Positions 3,619-11,509 of a DNA stretch of 11,931 nt are shown in pieces (position 1 is the stretch's first letter; every line of letters begins with the position of its first letter). A program made the position numbers and the translations under genes. The notes under the pieces are model-generated. The model was not told where the DNA came from and did not search any database. It worked only from the letters and a program-made list of their open reading frames with translations. This DNA is from JBFLXN01 sp040755715 [NCBI: Candidatus Edwardsbacteria bacterium]. GTDB taxonomy: Bacteria > Edwardsbacteria > AC1 > JBFLXN01. The DNA lies in the NCBI GenBank assembly GCA_040755715.1, contig JBFLXN010000074.1, positions 1 to 11,931 of the forward strand, read 5' to 3'.

Positions 3619-3640
3619 TTAAGAAACCTCCTTTTTTAAA

Positions 3641-3718
3641 ATGGAAAATGGAAGATGGAAGATAGAAAAACTGAGAAAATCTTCATATGTATTTCATTTT
3701 CTATCTTCCATTTTCTAT
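3641..3718. repeat. Palindromic array of 7-nt words (array 1)
   Basis: The spacer between the tricorn and hppA genes holds the words ATGGAAA, ATGGAAG, ATGGAAG, ATAGAAA in exact 7-nt phase (3641-3668). On the other strand it holds ATAGAAA, ATGGAAG, ATAGAAA, ATGAAAT in phase (3718 back to 3691). The arms form a 15-bp perfect stem (3655-3669 with 3697-3711) around a 27-nt loop. It nearly fills the 102-nt gap and reaches the tricorn stop codon, so it could be the transcript end of tricorn or a processing hairpin before hppA. Confidence 0.75.
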
Positions 3719-3720
3719 TC

Positions 3721-6700
3721 TCACCTTGGCAATGTCCTCTTTGGTCTCTTGTTGAAGTCGGGTTTGAGCGGTGGGTTTTTCTTCATCTCTTTCAGAACTT
3801 CTTCAATTGCCCGGTCTAATTGGGTATCTTTCCTCTTTGCATACTCTTGAGGTGTAATGTCCACCTCTATGTCTGGCTCAGTGCCATAGTTTTCAACACC
3901 CCAACCAACATCTTTGAACCAAAACGAGAATTCAGGTTGGGTCGTCAATGTTCCATCCGCCAACCAGTGGCGCGGCCATATACCAATCACTCCGCCCCAG
4001 GTGCGTCGACCAAGAAGTTTGCCGAGTTTCATCAGTTTAAACGAATGACTGAAAATATCTCCATCAGAACCCGCATGTTCATTAGTAAGAGCAACGATTG
4101 CCCCCCCCACGGATTCCTGAGGATAAGGTATATGTCCCATCCATCTGGTCAAATCATAACCGATTCTTTTCCGTGCTATTTTTTCTAACAAAAGTTGTGA
4201 AACATGCCCGCCACCGTTAACACGCACATCTACAATTAGCCCTTCATAGCCAAGTTCAGCCAGAAAATATCTATGGAACTCTGCATAGCCTTCAGCAGAC
4301 ATATCAGGTATATGTATATATCCCACTCGTCCTTCAGTAACTTTGTGCACATATTTTCTGTTCTGTTCAACCCAATGACGATACCTGAGTGGTGTCTCGT
4401 CCTTCAAAGTCTTCACACAAACAGTGCGGGGAGAACTACCGTCAGGTTCTGCTACTGTAAGTTGCACTTCTTGCTCACCCTGATTTACTAATAGTTTATG
4501 GGGAGGACAGTCCTTACCTAACCTTTGACCACCTATGCCAAGAAGTAACATACCTTCCTTTATATTCACGCCGGCTCGTTTTAATGGCGGTGGATTCTTT
4601 TCATCCCAGACATCACCATTAAGAATGCGAGTAAAACGATAAGCACGATGTTTAGAGTCATAAGTCAAGTCTGCCCCTAAAAAGCCAATTTTATATTCGG
4701 GTGCTGGTCTATAATCACCACCCAGCTCGTAGGCATGGGAAGTGCCAAGTTCTCCTTGCATCTCCCAGAGCAGGTCTGAAAATTCACTGCGGGAGGCAAC
4801 GCGCATCACCAGGGGATAATACCTCTCAAAGACCTTTTTCCAATTTACCCCAGACATATCCTCTACCCAGAAATAATCTCTCTGCAAATGCCATGCTTCT
4901 TTAAACATTTGTCGCCATTCAGCTATTGGCTCAATAGATATCTTCATCCGTGATAAATCTATCCAGCCGGTCTTTCTACTCGGTTTCTCCTCTTTTGGCA
5001 GTTCTTCTTTTGGTTCCTTCTTTGTGGATATAACCCGGAGACGATTGCCTACCCTATAAATCAATGCAGAGCCGTCACCGGATAACTTGAAACTGGTTAT
5101 TTTGTCCACAAATACTTGTTCCTCAAGTTTTTTCAGGTCAAAAATTTTTATACAAGCTTTTGCCGGCGGTTCCTTTTCAAACCAGGGTATACCACGGGCA
5201 CCCTCAACTGGATAAACCGTATAGAATACCTTATCCTTTGCCGCGGCAATATCCCCATAGATTCCTTCCTCTACCGGAAATGGAACGATTCGTTCGGCAA
5301 TGCCATCAAAATCAATATTGACCTTTTTTAATTTCTCCTCCCTCTCCCCTGATTCCTCTCCCTGTGGGAGCGAGGAGGGTTCCTCAAATCCGTGTGGTTT
5401 GGGCACAAATGGTGATGGTAAATCCTTTCGTAAAGCGATAAAATACGGACGCATACCCTTAGGAAAATTCAAGTCAAAATGCATATTGTCATAAACCGGA
5501 TTGAACACCCGACAAGAGAGAAAATAGAGATATTTCCCAGTTGGGTCAAATACAGGTGAGAAATCCCGAAGCACTGGTTCGGTGACTTGATATATTTTCC
5601 TGTTCTTTGTGTTATAAATCTTGATTACCAACACTTGATGGTTAATGGCAAACGAATAGACAATCCAGTCCCCGTCCGGCGACCAATCAAAACCAGCAAT
5701 CGGAAGATATTTGTTCTGTTCAATCTTTTTTAATTTACCTGTTGCCAGATTTACCCAGATAATTTCAAGTCTATGATTAGTTAAAGCTATCTCATCCTTT
5801 TTAGGTGATACCTTCATCTCATAGACTCTGCCAATATCTAAGCCGATGAACTTTTCCGGCGGAGTGGTGCCATCAATGTCGTGTATTTCCAGATGTTCCT
5901 TCTCTCCTTCATCACTTATTAAAACCACACGCTTCCCATCATTTAGAAAGCGGGTTAAACGATAGCGAATCCCGTTAGGAACACCTTGTTGGATAACCGG
6001 GCCTTCCCAATTGCCCATAGTTAAGGACTTACCCCGAATAACCAGAGCAGATAAACTGCCGTCTTTAGATAATGTATAATCCTCTGCGTATTTACCCGGT
6101 TCCACAAATTTCCTACTACGCTGTATGCGAGGGCTGGAGTATTCAATTTCAACTTTGGTATTCTCTTTCATTTTTGGGTCAAATCTGTAAATATCTGCGC
6201 CACTGTGATAAACGATACGGTTGCCGTCGGTAGTGGCATTTCTTGCATAGAACTCTTTATGATTAGTATGCTGTTCTAAGCCTTTGCCACTCGGCAGGCA
6301 TGAATAAATATTCCCAATACCTTTGTGGTCAGAGATAAAGTATATTCTATCACCGAGCCACATCGGATTGGCGAGGTTACCCTTGAGTTCAATAAGTCTA
6401 TGAAATTCACCGGTTCCACCTTCATCTATCCAGATTTCACCGGCCGTACCACCGCGATATCGCTTCCATCGGGCAAGGTCTCCAGTATTTCTGCCAATTA
6501 CAACTCCCTTTTTGCCAAAACTTATATTGCGTGCAGGACCTAAAGGAAGTATTTTGGGTCCGTTACCTTCCATATCTACTACATACAGCCAGAAAATGCG
6601 TTTAAATGGTTGACCAAAATTACTGGCGAACACAATGCTTTTGTTACGCCAGCCCACCACCATACTGTCACTGCCAACATAGGTTAATCTTTTGGCTGGT

Positions 6701-6936
6701 CCACCTGAGGCAGACATCAGATAGACTTCTGAGTGACCTTCTTCACGGCCGATAAAGGCGAGCCATTTGCCATCTGGAGAGAAAAAAGGATGCGAAACTT
6801 CACTAAGATTTGCGGTCAGCCGATGGGCTACGCCACCACTTGAGTTAACTAACCAGAGGTCATCTTCGGCGACAAAGACTATCTTGTCTGCGTGTATCGT
6901 AGGATACCGATAGTAACCTTTAATCTGTAGACTCAT
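3721..6936 (-). CDS. Tricorn protease homologue
   Basis: This 1071-residue cytoplasmic serine peptidase (MEROPS family S41) is expected to trim oligopeptides released by larger proteases. I use the ATG at 6936 because GGAGG lies 8 nt before it; the longer frame starts at a TTG inside that site. No signal peptide is present. Domains in order are an N-terminal beta-propeller (FSPDGKWLAFIGREEGHSEVYLM repeats, about residues 5-290), a second propeller (about 290-640), a helical region (about 665-740), a PDZ domain (about 750-850) and the catalytic C-terminal domain. All expected catalytic residues are visible: Ser733-His734 in GTSHAYE, the nucleophile Ser957 followed by Asp958 in AGSDGD, and Glu1020 in GTEPDIE. 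These correspond to Ser745/His746, Ser965 and Glu1023 of the Thermoplasma enzyme. A repeat-derived acidic linker near residues 515-535 is the one oddity. The length is normal. Confidence 0.95.
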   Translation of the reverse strand: MSLQIKGYYRYPTIHADKIVFVAEDDLWLVNSSGGVAHRLTANLSEVSHPFFSPDGKWLAFIGREEGHSEVYLMSASGGPAKRLTYVGSDSMVVGWRNKSIVFASNFGQPFKRIFWLYVVDMEGNGPKILPLGPARNISFGKKGVVIGRNTGDLARWKRYRGGTAGEIWIDEGGTGEFHRLIELKGNLANPMWLGDRIYFISDHKGIGNIYSCLPSGKGLEQHTNHKEFYARNATTDGNRIVYHSGADIYRFDPKMKENTKVEIEYSSPRIQRSRKFVEPGKYAEDYTLSKDGSLSALVIRGKSLTMGNWEGPVIQQGVPNGIRYRLTRFLNDGKRVVLISDEGEKEHLEIHDIDGTTPPEKFIGLDIGRVYEMKVSPKKDEIALTNHRLEIIWVNLATGKLKKIEQNKYLPIAGFDWSPDGDWIVYSFAINHQVLVIKIYNTKNRKIYQVTEPVLRDFSPVFDPTGKYLYFLSCRVFNPVYDNMHFDLNFPKGMRPYFIALRKDLPSPFVPKPHGFEEPSSLPQGEESGEREEKLKKVNIDFDGIAERIVPFPVEEGIYGDIAAAKDKVFYTVYPVEGARGIPWFEKEPPAKACIKIFDLKKLEEQVFVDKITSFKLSGDGSALIYRVGNRLRVISTKKEPKEELPKEEKPSRKTGWIDLSRMKISIEPIAEWRQMFKEAWHLQRDYFWVEDMSGVNWKKVFERYYPLVMRVASRSEFSDLLWEMQGELGTSHAYELGGDYRPAPEYKIGFLGADLTYDSKHRAYRFTRILNGDVWDEKNPPPLKRAGVNIKEGMLLLGIGGQRLGKDCPPHKLLVNQGEQEVQLTVAEPDGSSPRTVCVKTLKDETPLRYRHWVEQNRKYVHKVTEGRVGYIHIPDMSAEGYAEFHRYFLAELGYEGLIVDVRVNGGGHVSQLLLEKIARKRIGYDLTRWMGHIPYPQESVGGAIVALTNEHAGSDGDIFSHSFKLMKLGKLLGRRTWGGVIGIWPRHWLADGTLTTQPEFSFWFKDVGWGVENYGTEPDIEVDITPQEYAKRKDTQLDRAIEEVLKEMKKNPPLKPDFNKRPKRTLPR
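5333..5390. repeat. REP-like hairpin embedded in frame in the tricorn gene
   Basis: A C/T-rich run (CTCCTCCCTCTCCCCTGA) is followed by TTCCTCTCCC, TGT and GGGAGCGAGGA, which fold into a stem with a small bulge. The core TGTGGGAGCG at 5363-5372 matches the head of the REP-like hairpins at 11561-11581 and 11747-11768 (read on the minus strand). In the protein it encodes the Glu/Ser/Gly-rich linker HGFEEPSSLPQGEESGERE, which separates the conserved LRKDLPSPF and VNIDFDGIAERIV blocks. This linker is naturally variable in tricorn proteins, so an insertion there would be tolerated. Confidence 0.55.
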
Positions 6937-6960
6937 ATATTTATCCTCCAAGATATTTAG

Positions 6961-7106
6961 CCACAGATTGACCCAGAAATATGGAAACTAATAGAAATTT
7001 ATTGAAATTGATAGAAACTTGTAGTAAAGAACAATAAATTTCCACAAGTTTCCAAAAATTTCTATGAATTTCTATTTACTCTGTGTTATTCTGTGTAATT
7101 CTGTGG
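6961..7106. repeat. Palindromic array of 10-nt words (array 2)
   Basis: The 263-nt spacer upstream of the tricorn gene is dominated by about fifteen degenerate decamers in unbroken phase. The left arm reads CCACAGATTG, ACCCAGAAAT, ATGGAAACTA, ATAGAAATTT, ATTGAAATTG, ATAGAAACTT. The right arm, on the other strand, reads CACAGAATTA, CACAGAATAA, CACAGAGTAA, ATAGAAATTC, ATAGAAATTT, TTGGAAACTT, GTGGAAATTT. The arms are imperfect reverse complements centred near 7033, with the CACAGA words at both outer ends. A transcript would fold into one long hairpin. Nothing recognisable is left in 7107-7199 except AT-rich sequence. Confidence 0.8.
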
Positions 7107-7199
7107 CTTTATTCAATTTCCGAAGCGGGAAGGAAATTTGATTTTTTTTGCATCTTTCTCATATTATAACCTAATTACTAAGATTTTTTCAATATTTTT

Positions 7200-7559
7200 T
7201 TATTCAATCCTCTTTTGAAAACGCAAGGAACTAAAGATGAAAAAGAAAAGACCAAATAATAGAAGAATAAATATCTCTTTGTAAAGTTCAAAAAAACCTG
7301 CTCCTTTTAATAAGATATTCCTCACAATAATTAAAAAATAAGTGAAAGGGTTAATATATGCAACCCATCTTAAAATGTGAGGGATGCTGGCAATAGGAAA
7401 GAAAAGACCGGAAAGCAAAAAAATCGGCATTATCACCGGGAAGACAGTCAACATCACCTGGGCTTGGGTCTTAGAAACGGTGGTGGCCAGAAGTCCAATC
7501 CCGAGCGTCGTGAAAAGGAATATAATAGTAGTAAAGAAGAGTAGTAATAGACTACCCCT
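7200..7559 (-). pseudogene. C-terminal third of an ABC-2 type transporter permease
   Basis: The frame starts at RGSLLLLFF, the usual start of the fourth membrane helix region of DrrB/YhhJ-like permeases. It runs through GIGLLATTVSKTQAQVM, then LLSGLFFPI, then HILRWVAYINPFTYFLIIVRNILL and a last hydrophobic segment, ending FQKRIE. All these are typical of the C-terminal 120 residues of a protein of about 370. The first two thirds, including the first helix and the periplasmic domain, are absent. Upstream the frame stays open to 7607 but reads nothing permease-like. The missing part has been replaced directly by an ABC ATPase fragment in another frame. The protein would not work as a transporter. 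The next gene on this strand (tricorn) lies beyond array 2. Confidence 0.8.
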
Positions 7560-7650
7560 CTTCTCTCTTTTTGCGGACCTGTAACTCCATATATGCCAGA
7601 AAAAAAATCAATGTTTTCGGAAACCGTTAAATCCTGATACATTATAGAGC
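7559..7650 (-). pseudogene. Internal fragment of an ABC transporter ATPase
   Basis: About thirty codons read SIMYQDLTVSENIDFFSGIYGV, which matches the segment just after the Q-loop in drug- or polysaccharide-type ABC ATPases (commonly LYxDLTVxENLxFFAGIYGL). The Walker A region, the signature motif, Walker B and everything else are missing on both sides. The fragment runs at TGPQKERR straight into the permease remnant in a different frame. ABC ATPase and ABC-2 permease genes are usually adjacent, so this looks like the relic of one operon collapsed by an internal deletion. Confidence 0.65.
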
Positions 7651-7838
7651 CAGCCCTCGCCAATATATCTTATCCCCCAGCCGCATAACGGTGAATTGCG
7701 AACAATAGTGCAGGATAATACCTCAGAAACAGAAATGGTCTTTTGAATCACTCCAATGCCAAATATAAGACGAATGGAAGTCCCATCTACCGTGACGGTG
7801 AGTGAAAAGAAAAGGGTTTCAATCAAAAAAAACAAAAC
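7632..7838 (-). pseudogene. Fragment of a PH-domain-like membrane protein
   Basis: The frame encodes a hydrophobic end of a membrane segment (VLFFLIETLFFSLTV), then VDGTSIRLIFGIGVIQKTISVSEV, VRNSPLCGWGIRYIGEGWLYNVSG. The pattern (Leu/Arg-x-Phe-Gly-x-Gly, then VRNxxxxGWGIRxxxxGWLYNVSG) is one I recognise from small bacterial membrane proteins with a PH-like fold. In those the sequence continues with a strand ending in a GTDEPE-like motif; here it breaks off after NVSG, where the ABC ATPase fragment takes over in another frame. The N-terminal membrane helices are also missing. The reading frame formally runs 7901-7608, but its first residues are Lys/Arg-rich and unlike the family. The function of the family is unknown. 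Confidence 0.6.
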
Positions 7839-7870
7839 GTCTTTGTTCCCTTTAAACTTTTTTGCATTTT

Positions 7871-8053
7871 TTAGCCTTTTTCTTTTCCGCATTTTGGACA
7901 TTTTTTTAGTTTTTCATTGAACATCTGTCCGCATTTTTTGCAGAAAACAAATTTAATTTTACAAGTTTGGCAAAAGGGCGGTTCAAAACAAGTCATTTTT
8001 AACTCATTTTCGCAGAATGGACATTTGCATTTGGCAGATTTTTTCGTCTTCAT
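7871..8053 (-). CDS. Small 10-cysteine zinc-ribbon protein
   Basis: This 60-residue protein has ten cysteines, eight of them in four CxxC pairs: C11/C14, C28/C31, C38/C41 and C52/C55. The last two pairs form a classic zinc-ribbon (FCKKCGQMF...KKCPKCGKEKG); the first two may form a second ribbon. The rest is Lys-rich. Its ATG overlaps the iscU stop as ATGA, so it is translationally coupled to iscU. That suggests a role in metal or Fe-S handling, or simply an accessory in the same operon. I do not recognise it as a named family, and metal binding is inferred from the cysteine pattern alone. Confidence 0.8.
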   Translation of the reverse strand: MKTKKSAKCKCPFCENELKMTCFEPPFCQTCKIKFVFCKKCGQMFNEKLKKCPKCGKEKG

Positions 8054-8433
8054 CTTGCCCCCTTCTGTTTCTGAAGGTAATCTTCAATCGCCTTGTGTAA
8101 TGCATCTGCACCTAAATTTGAGCAGTGCATTTTGTTTGGCGGAAGCCCACCGAGTTCTTGAGCCACCAGTTGGTTTGTGATTTTTAATGCGTCTTCTATT
8201 GTCTTTCCTTTTGCCATTTCAGAAACTATGGAAGAAACAGCGATGGCCGCTCCGCAACCAAATGTCTTGAATTTTACATCTTCAAGTTTGTTATCTTTTA
8301 CTTTGAGGTAAAAACTCATCACATCCCCGCACACAGGATTACCCATTTCTCCAATTCCATCTGGGTCTTCTATTTCTCCAACATTCCTTGGATTCTTGAA
8401 ATGCTCCATCACTTTTTCTGAATAAAATGGCAT
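8050..8433 (-). CDS. iscU: Fe-S cluster assembly scaffold IscU/NifU-like
   Basis: The 127-residue protein is a scaffold on which Fe-S clusters are built before transfer to target proteins. Its length equals that of typical IscU. The three ligand cysteines are Cys35 in NPVCGD, Cys60 in TFGCGAAIAVSS and Cys104 in MHCSNLGADAL, and the conserved Asp37 is present. LPPNK at 97-101 corresponds to the LPPVK site bound by the HscA chaperone in proteobacterial IscU. It starts MPFYSEKVMEHFKNPRN as usual, and AGGAGGAG lies just before the ATG. The usual cysteine desulfurase partner is not in the window. Upstream (28 nt) lies the hybrid-cluster protein remnant; downstream the zinc-ribbon gene overlaps by 4 nt. 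It is complete, unlike most genes around it. Confidence 0.95.
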   Translation of the reverse strand: MPFYSEKVMEHFKNPRNVGEIEDPDGIGEMGNPVCGDVMSFYLKVKDNKLEDVKFKTFGCGAAIAVSSIVSEMAKGKTIEDALKITNQLVAQELGGLPPNKMHCSNLGADALHKAIEDYLQKQKGAR

Positions 8434-8461
8434 ATACTCCTCCTCGTATTTATGTCGTCTC

Positions 8462-9340
8462 TCAACTTTTTAATATCTGTTTTATATCTTCTTCTGGCTC
8501 ACTTATTAGTTTTAAGTTATATTGTTCTTTCAAGACTTTCAGCATATCCTCATTCACCCAGGCTGGAATTATAGGACCTAGGTATATACTTTTGATTCCG
8601 AGTGCCAGCAGGCTCCAAAGAATAGCCACAGACTTTTGCTCCATCCAACTCAACACTAAAGTGAGGGGAAGTTCGTTGATTCCTACGCCAAAAATCTCAG
8701 CCAGGGCAGCGGCTATCTCAATGGCCACGATAGCATCATTGCACTGTCCAAGGTCAATCAACCGGGGGACACCTTCAATGTGGCCAAGATTCAAATCATT
8801 AAACCTGAACTTACCGCAGGCAAGTGTAAGAACAATAGTGTGTTTTGGCAATTTCTCCACAAAGTCCCAGTAATACTGCCCTTTTTTAAACGGTGAATCA
8901 CAGCCTCCTATAAGAAAGAAATGGCGGAGCAAACCTTTAGACACTAATTGTTTAATCTTGTCTTTTAAGGACAAAACTAAAGACTTAGAAAACCCGGTGG
9001 TTAATACAGCCTCTCCCGCTTCCTTATTTAGTTCTGGTAGAGATTTTGCTTTCTCTATTACCGGTGTATAGTCATAGCCGGCGATGTGTGGCACACCAGG
9101 CACCCGCACCGGTCCGGTGGTAAACATTCTATCTCTATAATCTTCTCTGGGAATCATTACACAATTTGAAGTTATTAGAATAGCCGCAGGATACTTTGAG
9201 AATAACTGCTTCTGGTCATGCCAGGCTTTCCCTAAATTCCCGACCAGATGGTTGTATTTCTTTAGTTCAGGGTAGCCGTGAGCAAGGAGAAGTTCTGAAT
9301 GAGTATAGACATTTATTCCGTTTCCTTCAGTCCTTATAAT
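8462..9340 (-). pseudogene. hcp: C-terminal part of hybrid-cluster protein (hydroxylamine reductase)
   Basis: Intact Hcp reduces hydroxylamine or nitric oxide in anaerobes, using an N-terminal 4Fe cluster and a C-terminal Fe-S-O hybrid cluster. Here the frame begins [14 protein letters not shown] and runs to the natural end. Visible hybrid-cluster ligands are Glu in YTHSE, Cys in ITSNC, Cys in GGCDS (the persulfide site), Cys in LACGKF, Cys in GQCNDA, and Glu plus the following Lys in SWMEQK. Missing are the His ligand of the GHD motif, which would lie about 24 residues before that Glu, and everything upstream, including the N-terminal cysteine cluster and the helical domain. Internal ATGs such as the one at 9157 come too late to be starts. 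Upstream it joins a flavin reductase fragment in another frame, with 14 bp of frame overlap. It is very probably inactive. Confidence 0.85.
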
Positions 9341-9620
9341 TTACACCTTTGAATTTATCCAGTTCCCTTCCAGATTTAAAGCCAAAATTTCCAATAAATT
9401 TCATCGGCGTTTCTTTTAATAAAATTGAAACGGTAAAAACCTTACTTTCCTGAATATATTGGTGGGTTAAATTCTGTTTATTTATGCTCACCGCTATTGT
9501 GGGAGGCTCTGCAGTTATTTGAAATACAGTATTGGCGATTTGTCCATTGAGTTTCTCCCCTGTTTTTGAACTAACTACATAAAATCCGTAACTAATTTTG
9601 TAAAGGGTTTTGGGATTCAT
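9327..9620 (-). pseudogene. N-terminal half of an FMN-binding flavin reductase
   Basis: The ATG at 9620 begins MNPKTLYKISYGFYVVSSKTG, the start of the flavin reductase-like (split-barrel) family found in anaerobes, often fused to or near rubredoxin. It continues with LNGQIANTVFQITAEPPTIAVSINKQNLTHQYI and [18 protein letters not shown], then stops after 97 residues. Intact members have about 150-210 residues, so the second half of the barrel is missing. The preceding GAGGG is a fair ribosome site. A longer frame starting at 9698 would translate a repeat element and is not credible. In anaerobes such reductases sit next to hcp, so the fusion to the hcp remnant looks like a deletion within one operon. 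Confidence 0.8.
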
Positions 9621-9641
9621 CAAGATAACCCTCACTTCGTT

Positions 9642-9710
9642 CCTGACCGTCGGTCTCGCCCGTAGGTCTACGACCGAGGGCTTTGCATCTCGGAGCAACG
9701 GACAGGTCGG
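9642..9710. repeat. Hairpin repeat element, long form (A)
   Basis: The element begins CCTGACCGTCGG and ends CAACGGACAGGTCGG, like the shorter copy at 9850-9891. Its ends are imperfect inverted repeats. It carries an extra inner block of about 27 nt with nested arms CGGTC/GACCG and CGTAG-GT-CTACG. It lies just upstream of the flavin reductase start. Confidence 0.7.
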
Positions 9711-9719
9711 TTTGATTAC

Positions 9720-9839
9720 GGCGATAAAATCACTAACCGCTATCCGTCAACCGCTTACCGCTAAACAATATGCGCATAGCGGAAAGCGGATAGCGAAAAG
9801 CGATGTTTTTGTATCGCTGTCATCGTTTTTTTATCGCTG
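9720..9839. repeat. Palindromic array of 7-nt words (array 3)
   Basis: From 9734 the sequence reads in unbroken 7-nt phase: TAACCGC, TATCCGT, CAACCGC, TTACCGC, TAAACAA, TATGCGC, ATAGCGG, AAAGCGG, ATAGCGA, AAAGCGA, up to 9803. The second half is the reverse complement of the first, with the centre near 9768. Outside, GCGATAAAA (from 9721) and the TTTTTTATCGC ending at 9837 extend the dyad. It fills the space between hairpin elements A and B. Confidence 0.8.
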
Positions 9840-9849
9840 AAATCAGTAT

Positions 9850-9891
9850 CCTGACCGTTGGCTCTGCATCCTAGCTCAACGGACAGGTCGG
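9850..9891. repeat. Hairpin repeat element, short form (B)
   Basis: This 42-bp copy shares CCTGACCGTYGG at one end and GCATC...CAACGGACAGGTCGG at the other with element A, but lacks A's inner 27-nt hairpin. The end arms CCTGACCGTTG and CAACGGACAGG pair with one mismatch. Same orientation as A. Confidence 0.7.
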
Positions 9892-9925
9892 ATTGAAATT
9901 CCTAGAGGGTGAAATAATGCTTGGA

Positions 9926-9970
9926 GCCACAGAGAAGACTCAACTGTGCTCTCTGTGGTCTTTGTGGTTA
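9926..9970. repeat. Palindromic array of 9-nt words (array 4)
   Basis: CTGTGCTCT, CTGTGGTCT and TTGTGGTTA follow each other in 9-nt phase (9944-9970). A left arm with CCACAGAG (9927-9934) pairs with CTCTGTGG (9951-9958) over a 16-nt loop. The CACAGA word is also the outer word of array 2, so the two arrays are related. Confidence 0.6.
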
Positions 9971-10024
9971 AATCAACATCCTAAATAGAATAAAAATTAG
10001 CGATGCCCTTGCACAAGATAAGCC

Positions 10025-10042
10025 TCCCCCGATTTTCATCGG
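10025..10042. repeat. Short GC hairpin CCCCGAT/ATCGGGG
   Basis: CCCCGATTTTCATCGGGG folds with a 7-bp stem and a TTTC loop. A similar hairpin, GTCCCGAT-TTT-ATCGGGAC, occurs at 11519-11537, and a relative, CCCCCGA-CAAG-TCGGGGG, at 11894-11911. No U-tract follows, so these are more likely a dispersed repeat than terminators. Confidence 0.55.
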
Positions 10043-10050
10043 GGTCGGCA

Positions 10051-10170
10051 AGTAGCGAGAATTGGGTTTACGGGGTTTTCTCGGTTTATTGAGTTTATCG
10101 GGTTATTAAAACCCAATGAACCCAAAAAACTCAACAAACTCAATTAACCTAATACTTTCTACTCGCTACT
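10051..10170. repeat. Palindromic array of 9-nt words (array 5)
   Basis: Five nonamers on one arm (GGGTTTACG, GGGTTTTCT, CGGTTTATT, GAGTTTATC, GGGTTATTA; 10064-10108) are followed without a break by five complementary ones (AAACCCAAT, GAACCCAAA, AAACTCAAC, AAACTCAAT, TAACCTAAT; 10109-10153). The whole is bounded by the perfect 9-bp inverted repeat AGTAGCGAG (10051-10059) and CTCGCTACT (10162-10170). It ends 7 nt from the dnaN stop codon, so a dnaN transcript would run straight into this 120-nt hairpin. Confidence 0.85.
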
Positions 10171-10177
10171 ATTTTAT

Positions 10178-11338
10178 TCAAGTTTCTTCCGGCAATCTGA
10201 TAGGCATAAGAAGGTAGAGCAATTCTTCACCTTCCTTTTGGACTGAAGGGGTAATAATTCCAGCAGAAAGAGAAGTATTGAGTGAGAAGAGAACCTCATC
10301 TGATTCAATATTTCGCAAAATGTCCAAAAGATAAGTGGCATTATACCCAACAGCCATTTCATCTCCAGCATAATCGCAAGACAGAACTTCCTTAGCCTCA
10401 CCCACATCAGGGGTAGAACTAGAGAGTTGCACTAAATTAGAAGATAAATCCAAGCGAATCTGATGGCTGAAAGTTTCAGACAACACCGAGACTCGCCGAA
10501 CTGCACTAATCAGTGCCTCACGATTAACTAAAAGTCTTTTAGAAGATTCCTTAGGAATTGCCTCTTCGTAGGAAGGGTAAGGACCTTCAACTAAACGAGA
10601 ATAAATCTGTGTCTCCCCTAAGTTAAAGAGAACAAATCTCTCATCAAAATTTATTTCCATCTCTTCTACTGTTTCACTTATTACTCGAATTAGTTGATTT
10701 AACCCTTTAGCCGAAATAATTAATTGCCCCTTCTGCTCCGTCTTGGGTAATGGTTCGGCTTTGCTCACCATAAAATGAATCTTCACTCGTCCCAAACGGT
10801 GTCCGTCAGTAGTTACAATCTCCATTTCTTCACCTTTTCCTCCGGGACAAGTTATTAGCCTCCAGAAACTACCACAGAGAGCGGGTCTACTTGTATCTGT
10901 AGAAACAGCAAAGATTGTTCGGCGAATAGCACTCTGAATTAGTGGTGAACTAACTTTTATTTTTAAGCCTTTTTCAACCTTAGGTAATTCAGGAAATTCC
11001 TCTTTAGCAATACCTACTATCTTAAATTCACCTTTTTCATAGCGTAAGGTTACTTTTTGCTCTTCTACCGCCACTTCTACTGGAACATCAGGTAATTCTC
11101 TCACAATGCCAAAAAATTGCTTAGCGGGCACGGTAATTGAACCTGTTACTGAAACTTCTGCCTTTGTCTTGCTTGTAATCGCCACATCTAAATCGGTTGT
11201 AGTAAGAAATAATTCTTTATTAGATTTTGCCTCTAAAAGAATATTAGAAAGAATAGGAAAGGTAGTCTTACTAGGAACTACCCCTATTACTGTTTGAAGA
11301 GCATTCACCAGGTTTTCCTGACTGATAGTAAATTTCAT
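10178..11338 (-). CDS. dnaN: DNA polymerase III beta subunit (sliding clamp)
   Basis: The 386-residue protein is the ring that holds the replicative polymerase and repair enzymes on DNA. Three clamp domains are visible: residues 1-120 (MKFTISQENLVNALQTVIGVVPSKTTFPILSNILLEA), about 125-255 (with SRPALCG and TTDGHRLGRVK) and about 255-386. It ends with YLLMPIRL, the usual MPxRL terminus that shapes the partner-binding pocket. A short insertion (WRLITCPGGKGEEME) makes it slightly longer than typical clamps. AAAGGAG lies 6 nt before the ATG. Neither dnaA nor recF is adjacent here: the minus-strand downstream side is repeats and then the flavin reductase remnant, and the upstream side is repeats and tail remnants. 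No DnaA boxes are obvious nearby. Confidence 0.96.
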   Translation of the reverse strand: MKFTISQENLVNALQTVIGVVPSKTTFPILSNILLEAKSNKELFLTTTDLDVAITSKTKAEVSVTGSITVPAKQFFGIVRELPDVPVEVAVEEQKVTLRYEKGEFKIVGIAKEEFPELPKVEKGLKIKVSSPLIQSAIRRTIFAVSTDTSRPALCGSFWRLITCPGGKGEEMEIVTTDGHRLGRVKIHFMVSKAEPLPKTEQKGQLIISAKGLNQLIRVISETVEEMEINFDERFVLFNLGETQIYSRLVEGPYPSYEEAIPKESSKRLLVNREALISAVRRVSVLSETFSHQIRLDLSSNLVQLSSSTPDVGEAKEVLSCDYAGDEMAVGYNATYLLDILRNIESDEVLFSLNTSLSAGIITPSVQKEGEELLYLLMPIRLPEET

Positions 11339-11396
11339 TTTTTGCTCCTTTGTTTAATTCTGTAATGAGACCATGGAAAAAGTTATAGATGGTTTT

Positions 11397-11426
11397 CTAC
11401 CGCACTAAAATCATCTTCCTCTTTCG
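11397..11426 (-). pseudogene. C-terminal tail remnant ending KMILVR (copy 1)
   Basis: The minus strand reads RKRKMILVR then TAG. The frame is cut a codon further upstream by the heptad array at 11424-11451. The sequence CACTAAAATCATCTTCCTC (11403 onward) is nearly the same as the one coding the longer tail at 11462-11509. I read it as the last codons of a gene for a surface protein with a FlgD/type A sorting-like domain, with its body gone. Confidence 0.45.
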
Positions 11427-11461
11427 CTATTCGCTATTCGCTATTCGCTTTAAAGAAAGAG
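11419..11461. repeat. Array of 7-nt words TCGCTAT with inverted flanks (array 6)
   Basis: TCGCTAT occurs three times perfectly (11424-11444), then TCGCTTT (11445-11451). The array is flanked by the inverted repeat CTCTTTC (11419-11425) and GAAAGAG (11455-11461). The word resembles the CCGCTAT/ATAGCGG word of array 3. It separates the two tail remnants. Confidence 0.75.
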
Positions 11462-11509
11462 CTACCTCACCAAAATCATCTTCTTCGTCGCCGTGAAATC
11501 ACCTGCAGG
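11462..11509 (-). pseudogene. C-terminal tail remnant ending AGDFTATKKMILVR (copy 2)
   Basis: The minus strand encodes PAGDFTATKKMILVR followed by TAG. This matches the last strand of type A sorting/FlgD-Ig-like domains, which often ends in ...GxFTxTKKMILVR or close variants. Upstream, within about ten codons, the coding similarity gives way to the repeat hairpin at 11519-11537, so the rest of the gene is missing. It is a remnant, not a gene. Confidence 0.6.

Follow-up and report, generated by a model that had tools for sequence, protein, structure and literature searches.

The 11,931-nucleotide (nt) contig JBFLXN010000074.1 of a bacterium catalogued as Candidatus Edwardsbacteria, referred to at its full length as the window, carries at six intergenic places a short degenerate word repeated in strict phase, and at four of the six the array is mirrored to give a palindrome. 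These arrays are a variant of the known short tandemly repeated repetitive (STRR) or heptamer arrays, one that is unusually diverse, nested and fast-changing. As to their origin, the account we judge on balance probable is that they are degenerate tandem arrays with units of 7–10 nt, of STRR or heptamer simple sequence repeat type, lying mostly between co-directional genes and grown by slippage with occasional mirroring.

Phase was measured as the best segment of lag matches, scored +1 or −1, over periods 5–13, with 500 dinucleotide shuffles of each spacer setting a floor of P=0.002. An initial sequence-only reading of this DNA had picked out six spacers with a strictly phased word and had proposed comparison with shuffled spacers; it was right, as all six places reach the floor. 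Period-7 segments lie at 3638-3667, 9728-9803 and 11423-11449, period-9 segments at 9944-9968 and 10064-10153, and a period-10 segment at 6981-7105, so that the tandem units of fixed short length that characterize STRR and heptamer arrays are found at every one of the six, with unit length 7 at three and 9 or 10 at the remainder. Four further stretches of the window were without phase under the same shuffle test (P 0.098 to 0.89).

Mirroring was scored by scanning for ungapped inverted repeats, with 100 shuffles for comparison, and RNA folding as z from 100 dinucleotide shuffles on both strands. Five arrays had been thought to be mirrored. Four of the six beat their shuffles, and these four palindromes fold strongly whichever strand is taken, with z between −4.1 and −9.9. 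The first, at 3638-3720, is a period-7 array (ATGGAAR) with an inverted partner (arms 3647-3669/3697-3719, P=0.02; z −7.5 on the plus and −4.1 on the minus strand), and lies between an hppA-like gene and a tricorn-like protease gene, both on the minus strand (hppA, tricorn-like protease, dnaN and IscU are names presumed here from the look of the sequences alone). The second, at 9720-9839, has a period-7 array (ACCGCTA) with core 9728-9803 and a mirrored arm (9738-9763/9777-9802, P=0.01; z −6.8 and −5.1). The other two are nested. At 6959-7108 a decamer pair, the outer period-10 CACAGA/CTGTG arms 6959-6978 and 7089-7108 (85%), surrounds a decamer palindrome with period-10 arms 6990-7027 and 7039-7076, 82% over 38 nt (P=0.01; z −9.9 and −9.0). 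At 10048-10170, downstream of dnaN (minus strand), an outer AGTAGCGAG...CTCGCTACT stem (10051-10059/10162-10170) encloses a nonamer palindrome with period-9 arms of GGGTTTATT type, the inverted arms as scanned being 10048-10104/10110-10166 (P=0.01; z −6.8 and −7.3). Of the two places where mirroring did not exceed 100 shuffles, the short period-9 stretch CTCTGTGGT/CTTTGTGGT at 9926-9970 is weak, its period reaching P=0.002 and its 9-bp stem P=0.11 (z −3.0 and −3.2 for 9921-9974), and the approximately four perfect TTCGCTA heptamers at 11423-11449 are unmirrored (P=0.66 for 11339-11500), 11395-11455 folding no more strongly than its shuffles (z +0.5 and +0.8). A hairpin alone is not special in the window, since an inverted repeat likewise beats shuffles in the unphased stretch 889-953 (P=0.01). 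On either side of the 9720-9839 palindrome stand two hairpin-like direct copies of 44 nt, 80% identical and assigned to repeat family D5, at 9672-9715 and 9853-9896; the fold of 9850-9900 has z −2.2 and −3.8.

How widespread is the habit? Among 147 WOR-3 genomes, 129 of them with a match, those nearest to the window by DnaN are G017 (48%) and G019 (45%), and identity to 16 genomes of other phyla is at most 38%, the three cyanobacterial ones among them standing at 32–34%; this is an affinity by one gene against a set of 147 WOR-3 genomes and 21 others that samples a subset of phyla. A detector of phased arrays between genes, set to a score of at least 15 and a low-complexity filter, found 26 in 114 loci from many phyla against 1.0 in shuffles. 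In 60 WOR-3 loci, a few of which overlap the 114-locus set and one of which (L126) reads N only, it found 35 against 0.2, again far above shuffles; the sequence-only reading had recommended scanning related genomes for intergenic inverted repeats with phased arms. Chance or base composition can be virtually discounted, as dinucleotide shuffles are beaten in the window, in the 114 loci and in the 60 WOR-3 loci, and E. coli K-12 has no array in 50 kb. Periods 7 and 8 make up 70 of 90 arrays (46 and 24 respectively, in a count that excludes loci L081-L114). Distribution is patchy: at least one array is present in 14 of 44 sampled WOR-3 genomes, and density per 10 kb is 5.0 in the window, 3.4 in G151 and 2.5 in G152, counts varying with the gene mask (53 or 48 for G152, some of whose short contigs read N only). 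The array habit does not track close kinship to the window, since G017, nearest by DnaN, has none in about 113 kb, or a single period-10 stretch (L119) under another gene caller. A templating core would be expected to leave the variable positions of the unit next to each other. Among 43 heptamer arrays they are so placed in 19.8, where 14.3 would be expected; periods 8, 9 and 10 give no clear excess (5.5 versus 6.0, 1.5 versus 1.0 and 0 versus 0.7).

Change is best seen between G151 and G152, sister genomes with block identities of 88 to 98%, mostly 92–96%. Their chained alignment of 26.8 kb contains 13 intervals with a difference of at least 12 bases, although two (L179 at 989 and 1039) are chaining artefacts over arrays; by eye the differing intervals hold arrays, REP-like hairpins (repetitive extragenic palindromes, REP), a transposase gene, or some combination. 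Two of the seven alignment blocks have no difference of that size, nor does a further, eighth block of 4.0 kb. A comparison of unit number in orthologous spacers had also been suggested, and unit number does differ: at the 3′ end of what we take to be hypC (this name and hypF in the relatives are likewise presumed from the sequences alone) a common heptamer word has, by eye, a left arm of about 16 units in G151 and about 7 in G152, the right arm having about 4 in each. The hypC frame of G152 stops within the array (L179 1090-1320) and its tail is unlike that of the sister, 76 versus 73 codons.

At the hypF-hypC junction the palindrome of G152 is GTAATGT/ACATTTA, while a different word, of AAATCTAAA type, makes up the palindromes of its sister G151 and of G148, a more distant genome, and these two can be aligned. 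That alignment, a loose one, and an nhmmer match that is weak (E=7e-4) suggest that the palindromes of G151 and G148 are homologous, in which case the word would have been exchanged in G152. The same junction has a period-8 array in G020, is marginal in G022 (P=0.05), and is without phase in G139 and G021. Exchange of this kind is what would be expected of a distinct self-renewing intergenic element, in WOR-3 and other phyla, with concentric shells of short-period arrays, decamers or heptamers on the outside and octamers or nonamers within, which a putative copying or templating activity would build and replace together from a limited set of phylum-wide words; were there such an element, which we think unlikely, orthologous junctions would keep their array-hairpin while the word is exchanged. 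The earlier idea of a shared way of building spacers survives in that one genome has several words and unit lengths and relatives change rapidly. Separately, the DNA around dnaN in G149 (L088) and G148 (L089) is some 97–98% identical, the longest other match between these genomes being 80%, a likeness possibly due to recent transfer or to a binning mix-up.

What might generate such spacers? On the account we favor, arrays would lengthen by replication slippage, and a mirror would arise by occasional fold-back (quasi-palindrome) synthesis or by the same word arriving nearby in reverse. Nested shells would form where adjacent arrays were mirrored together, and some palindromes would then spread as dispersed families via a putative copying activity. 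Constraint on the array spacers is probably weak, and no specific function need be assumed for the hairpins. An alternative gives fold-back a larger role, the polymerase switching strands at the array and so copying the first arm into the second, and this we see as possible without thinking it probable. Fold-back of adjacent arrays would yield concentric shells. Of 19 palindromes taken from other genomes, one from a Cloacimonadota contig and the remaining 18 from WOR-3, all but one score higher in the mirror register than after a one-unit shift, though the register had been chosen as best. Within the window, however, none of the four palindromes pairs better than independent arms simulated from the same unit profile (P 0.21, 0.41, 0.66 and 0.74), a one-unit shift retains much of the arm pairing (arms taken with one base beyond each end), and the mirror register of the nonamer palindrome at 10048-10170 (0.68) scores lower than another in-phase register (0.79). 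Between the sisters, moreover, the difference in length is confined to one arm. Growth by hairpin templating, as the sequence-only reading had envisaged it, is accordingly not supported in the window, with 4 of the 19 palindromes elsewhere beating the independent-arm simulation at P≤0.05, which is above chance and not general. The hairpins are real as word-level structures, and arm-by-arm copying is demonstrated for a few palindromes at most.

Several points weigh against the account of slippage with occasional mirroring. Its two steps are inferred, with no mutation observed in progress; the mirror is not explained by slippage alone; and the same 4 of 19 palindromes may have had a templated origin. 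Mirroring goes beyond a same-genome null in only 18 of 116 arrays at P≤0.05, about 6 being expected, in a test that is conservative because the null pool included each array's own spacer (the seven sources, here and for gene placement, are the window, G152, G151, G148, G149, G150 and G019). Finally, the turnover is seen in relatives only, and G151 and G152 are not close to the window genome.

The words themselves had been described as unrelated, or loosely related, between loci. Several are indeed distinct, but a CGCTA heptamer is common to 9720-9839 and 11423-11449 (27 nt, 85% complementary), CACAGA/CTGTG is by eye common to 6959-7108 and 9926-9970, and words recur in the phylum. With 9614-10177 of the window as query, matches are present in at least 17 of the 147 WOR-3 genomes, at least 9 to the nonamer, at least 6 to the CTCTGTGGT part and at least 4 to the heptamer part (two genomes count twice), all lower bounds since scoring covered just four candidates in each genome. 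Nonamers in phase, like those of the window, can be seen in G148, G149, G034 and G132, and nearly three units of TTCGCTA, with up to one mismatch, occur in 2 of the 147. The words are therefore not strictly locus-specific. Recurrence of word families in one genome is seen in relatives, and in the window for the CGCTA word with its two places. In G151 and G152, 14 of 29 octamer arrays (those without a GTNATT-type word excluded, and a few being the same place in both sisters) lie after a CAGA-type decamer within 60 nt, compared with a background of 18%. Seven loci of G150-G152 have related nested palindromes with octamer arms, several with a CAGA-type decamer outside, the loop being similar in five and of another kind in two (L244 and L248). 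Some arrays thus belong to dispersed nested-palindrome families and others do not, and the assertion that this was not one repeat family copied around is too sweeping as it was written, some G150-G152 arrays being members of such families.

Could the hairpins be selected RNA structures, serving as transcript ends, processing sites or stabilizing hairpins between co-transcribed genes? The strong folds on both strands could be so read, as could the placement of the 90 arrays that have a called gene on either side, where co-directional spacers hold 82 against 67.6 expected by length (49 of 223 spacers occupied). That folding is alike on both strands counts the other way, as does the possible absence of phase at orthologous junctions, as in G139 and G021. 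Convergent spacers, where terminators would be looked for, hold 2 against 5.4 expected by length, with 1 of 22 occupied; numbers are small, and on these figures a terminator reading was rejected and the proposed transcript-end role finds no backing. Divergent spacers have 6 arrays against 17.0 by length, a shortfall in arrays per base and not in spacers, as 6 of 33 are occupied, much like the tandem ones. No P is given for placement because arrays cluster within spacers. A selected RNA role appears to us quite improbable.

Dispersal brings mobile elements to mind, with the palindromes as miniature elements moved by a Y1 transposase (of the REP-associated tyrosine transposase, RAYT, or TIRYT type) or by another enzyme, and the periodic arms a by-product or a recognized structure. 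Nested palindromes are dispersed in the relatives, Y1_Tnp (RAYT-type) matches occur in 87 of the 147 WOR-3 genomes, and arrays are found in 14 of 32 sampled genomes with Y1_Tnp compared with none of 12 without (one-sided Fisher P=0.004; Spearman 0.55 over 41 genomes). These figures ignore kinship, and come from 44 genomes mostly sampled over 20 kb or less, of which the 41 with 8 kb or more entered the correlation, the lack of a match row being taken as zero. The correlation may reflect lineages tolerant of repeats. A 302-bp insertion in G152, with CACAGAG-type arrays and TATTAA at both ends, has a clean empty site in G151, which shows that DNA with arrays in it can be gained or lost in one piece. 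By eye, the spacers at L089 (G148) and L246 (G151) combine arrays with REP-like GTAGGG palindromes and with whole or partial Y1 transposase genes; a Y1_Tnp match is recorded on the L246 contig and none is listed for that of L089. In the window, GTAG at 10052 and CTAC at 10166 are at the outer ends of 10048-10170, within its paired stem, and neither GTAG nor CGTC tags stand at the ends of the other five places, one GTAG and one CGTC being inside two of them. Against mobility, no constant ends were found, such as the terminal inverted repeats that go with target duplication in a miniature inverted-repeat transposable element (MITE), and the octamer-palindrome family of G150-G152 has no clear ones; transposase number and array density diverge in places, G017 having 7 matches with no array in its 113 kb or so and G150 15 matches with one array in 31 kb. 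Nor do arrays flank the transposase genes: around 30 of 42 matches in eight genomes there are 7 arrays in 95 kb, no excess over background, the nearest being some 400 nt from the matched domain. RAYT as direct agent was therefore set aside, correlated in presence though it is. The broader mobile-element explanation is kept as a rival, if a doubtful one.

By its original definition STRR has a cyanobacterial host, and Mazel et al. reportedly described in 1990 the heptamer repeats of filamentous cyanobacteria that bear the name. The likeness is of degenerate tandem heptamers, intergenic and with several words per genome; the window differs in having periods 7, 9 and 10 together (8 in relatives), four of six arrays mirrored, two nested, and a host nearest WOR-3. 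Since that host is not cyanobacterial, with DnaN 48% identical to WOR-3 as against 32–34% to cyanobacteria, the window arrays are a variant and not STRR proper.

Contrary to the supposition that no class could be named, heptamer arrays are known and mirrored ones have been published for Xanthomonas (PMC4692102) and for the P6b region of the Nostoc trnL intron (PMC4476775). In Xanthomonas, 186 GGGNATC repeats are counted for Xcc, which 70 times form a convergent pair, and array length changes between Xcc and Xac; the same source mentions Calothrix heptanucleotides and found only few convergent pairs in Nostoc (PMC4692102). Intergenic position, convergent pairs and length change are all shared, while a single G-rich word there contrasts with many words and unit lengths in the window and its relatives (PMC4692102). 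P6b, a hairpin on a degenerate 7-nt motif (TDNGATT or NNTGAGT), changes its units on one or both sides and can have one motif class replaced by the other at the same place (PMC4476775). It is alike in its construction from a short degenerate motif, in unit change and in word replacement in situ, and unlike in being a single locus in a group I intron where the present arrays are in ordinary spacers (PMC4476775). The TAACTGA heptamers of Beggiatoaceae are also intergenic arrays, patchy across distant phyla, but they have one word, almost always direct and often just before start codons, unlike the window arrays; the same paper relays the idea that 7 nt reflects polymerase contact (PMC4679880). 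REP sequences are small intergenic palindromes thought mobile, and REP-like hairpins with Y1 genes occur in the same spacers of the relatives; in the REP description consulted, however, a GTAG or CGTC tag lies outside the pairing and periodic arms do not feature (PMC3733652). Thermophile polymerases reportedly elongate repeats in vitro by way of hairpins (Ogata, cited in PMC13061963), a lead to mechanism and not a test. A literature search, weak in that subscription literature is mostly outside it, turned up no account for WOR-3 of arrays that mix periods and are both nested and mirrored.

The surroundings of the arrays contribute a few observations in their own right. Pfam recognizes in the window a lamin-tail domain, a FlgD-type tail domain, an ABC-2 membrane fragment, a prismane fragment and a flavin reductase domain; no Rfam family scores above its gathering threshold in it (0 matches), and ARAGORN finds no tRNA there. 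At 7200-7457 and 8462-9157 the Pfam matches cover only the C-terminal part of a protein, an ABC-2 membrane protein in the first case and a member of the prismane/CO-dehydrogenase family in the second, for which reason the region may hold decayed genes. The tricorn-like protease (3721-6951) shares 69% and 68% identity with proteins from metagenome-assembled genomes labelled Thermotogae and Mesoaciditogaceae (L001 and L002), and its gene was perhaps transferred, going by sequence likeness, as DnaN points instead to WOR-3. An in-frame TGA in the DnaN of G004 and G006, considered as possible recoding, is a double stop at the gene end.

Repeats with units of 5–9 nt are little studied in bacteria, according to PMC4692102. 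Array-rich sisters, G151 and G152, differ in array length, word and nesting at matching places, and the origin of such arrays, whether by slippage, fold-back synthesis or an enzyme, thereby becomes testable by strain sequencing. There is also a caution for those who come upon hairpins in spacers of this kind: they need not be regulatory.

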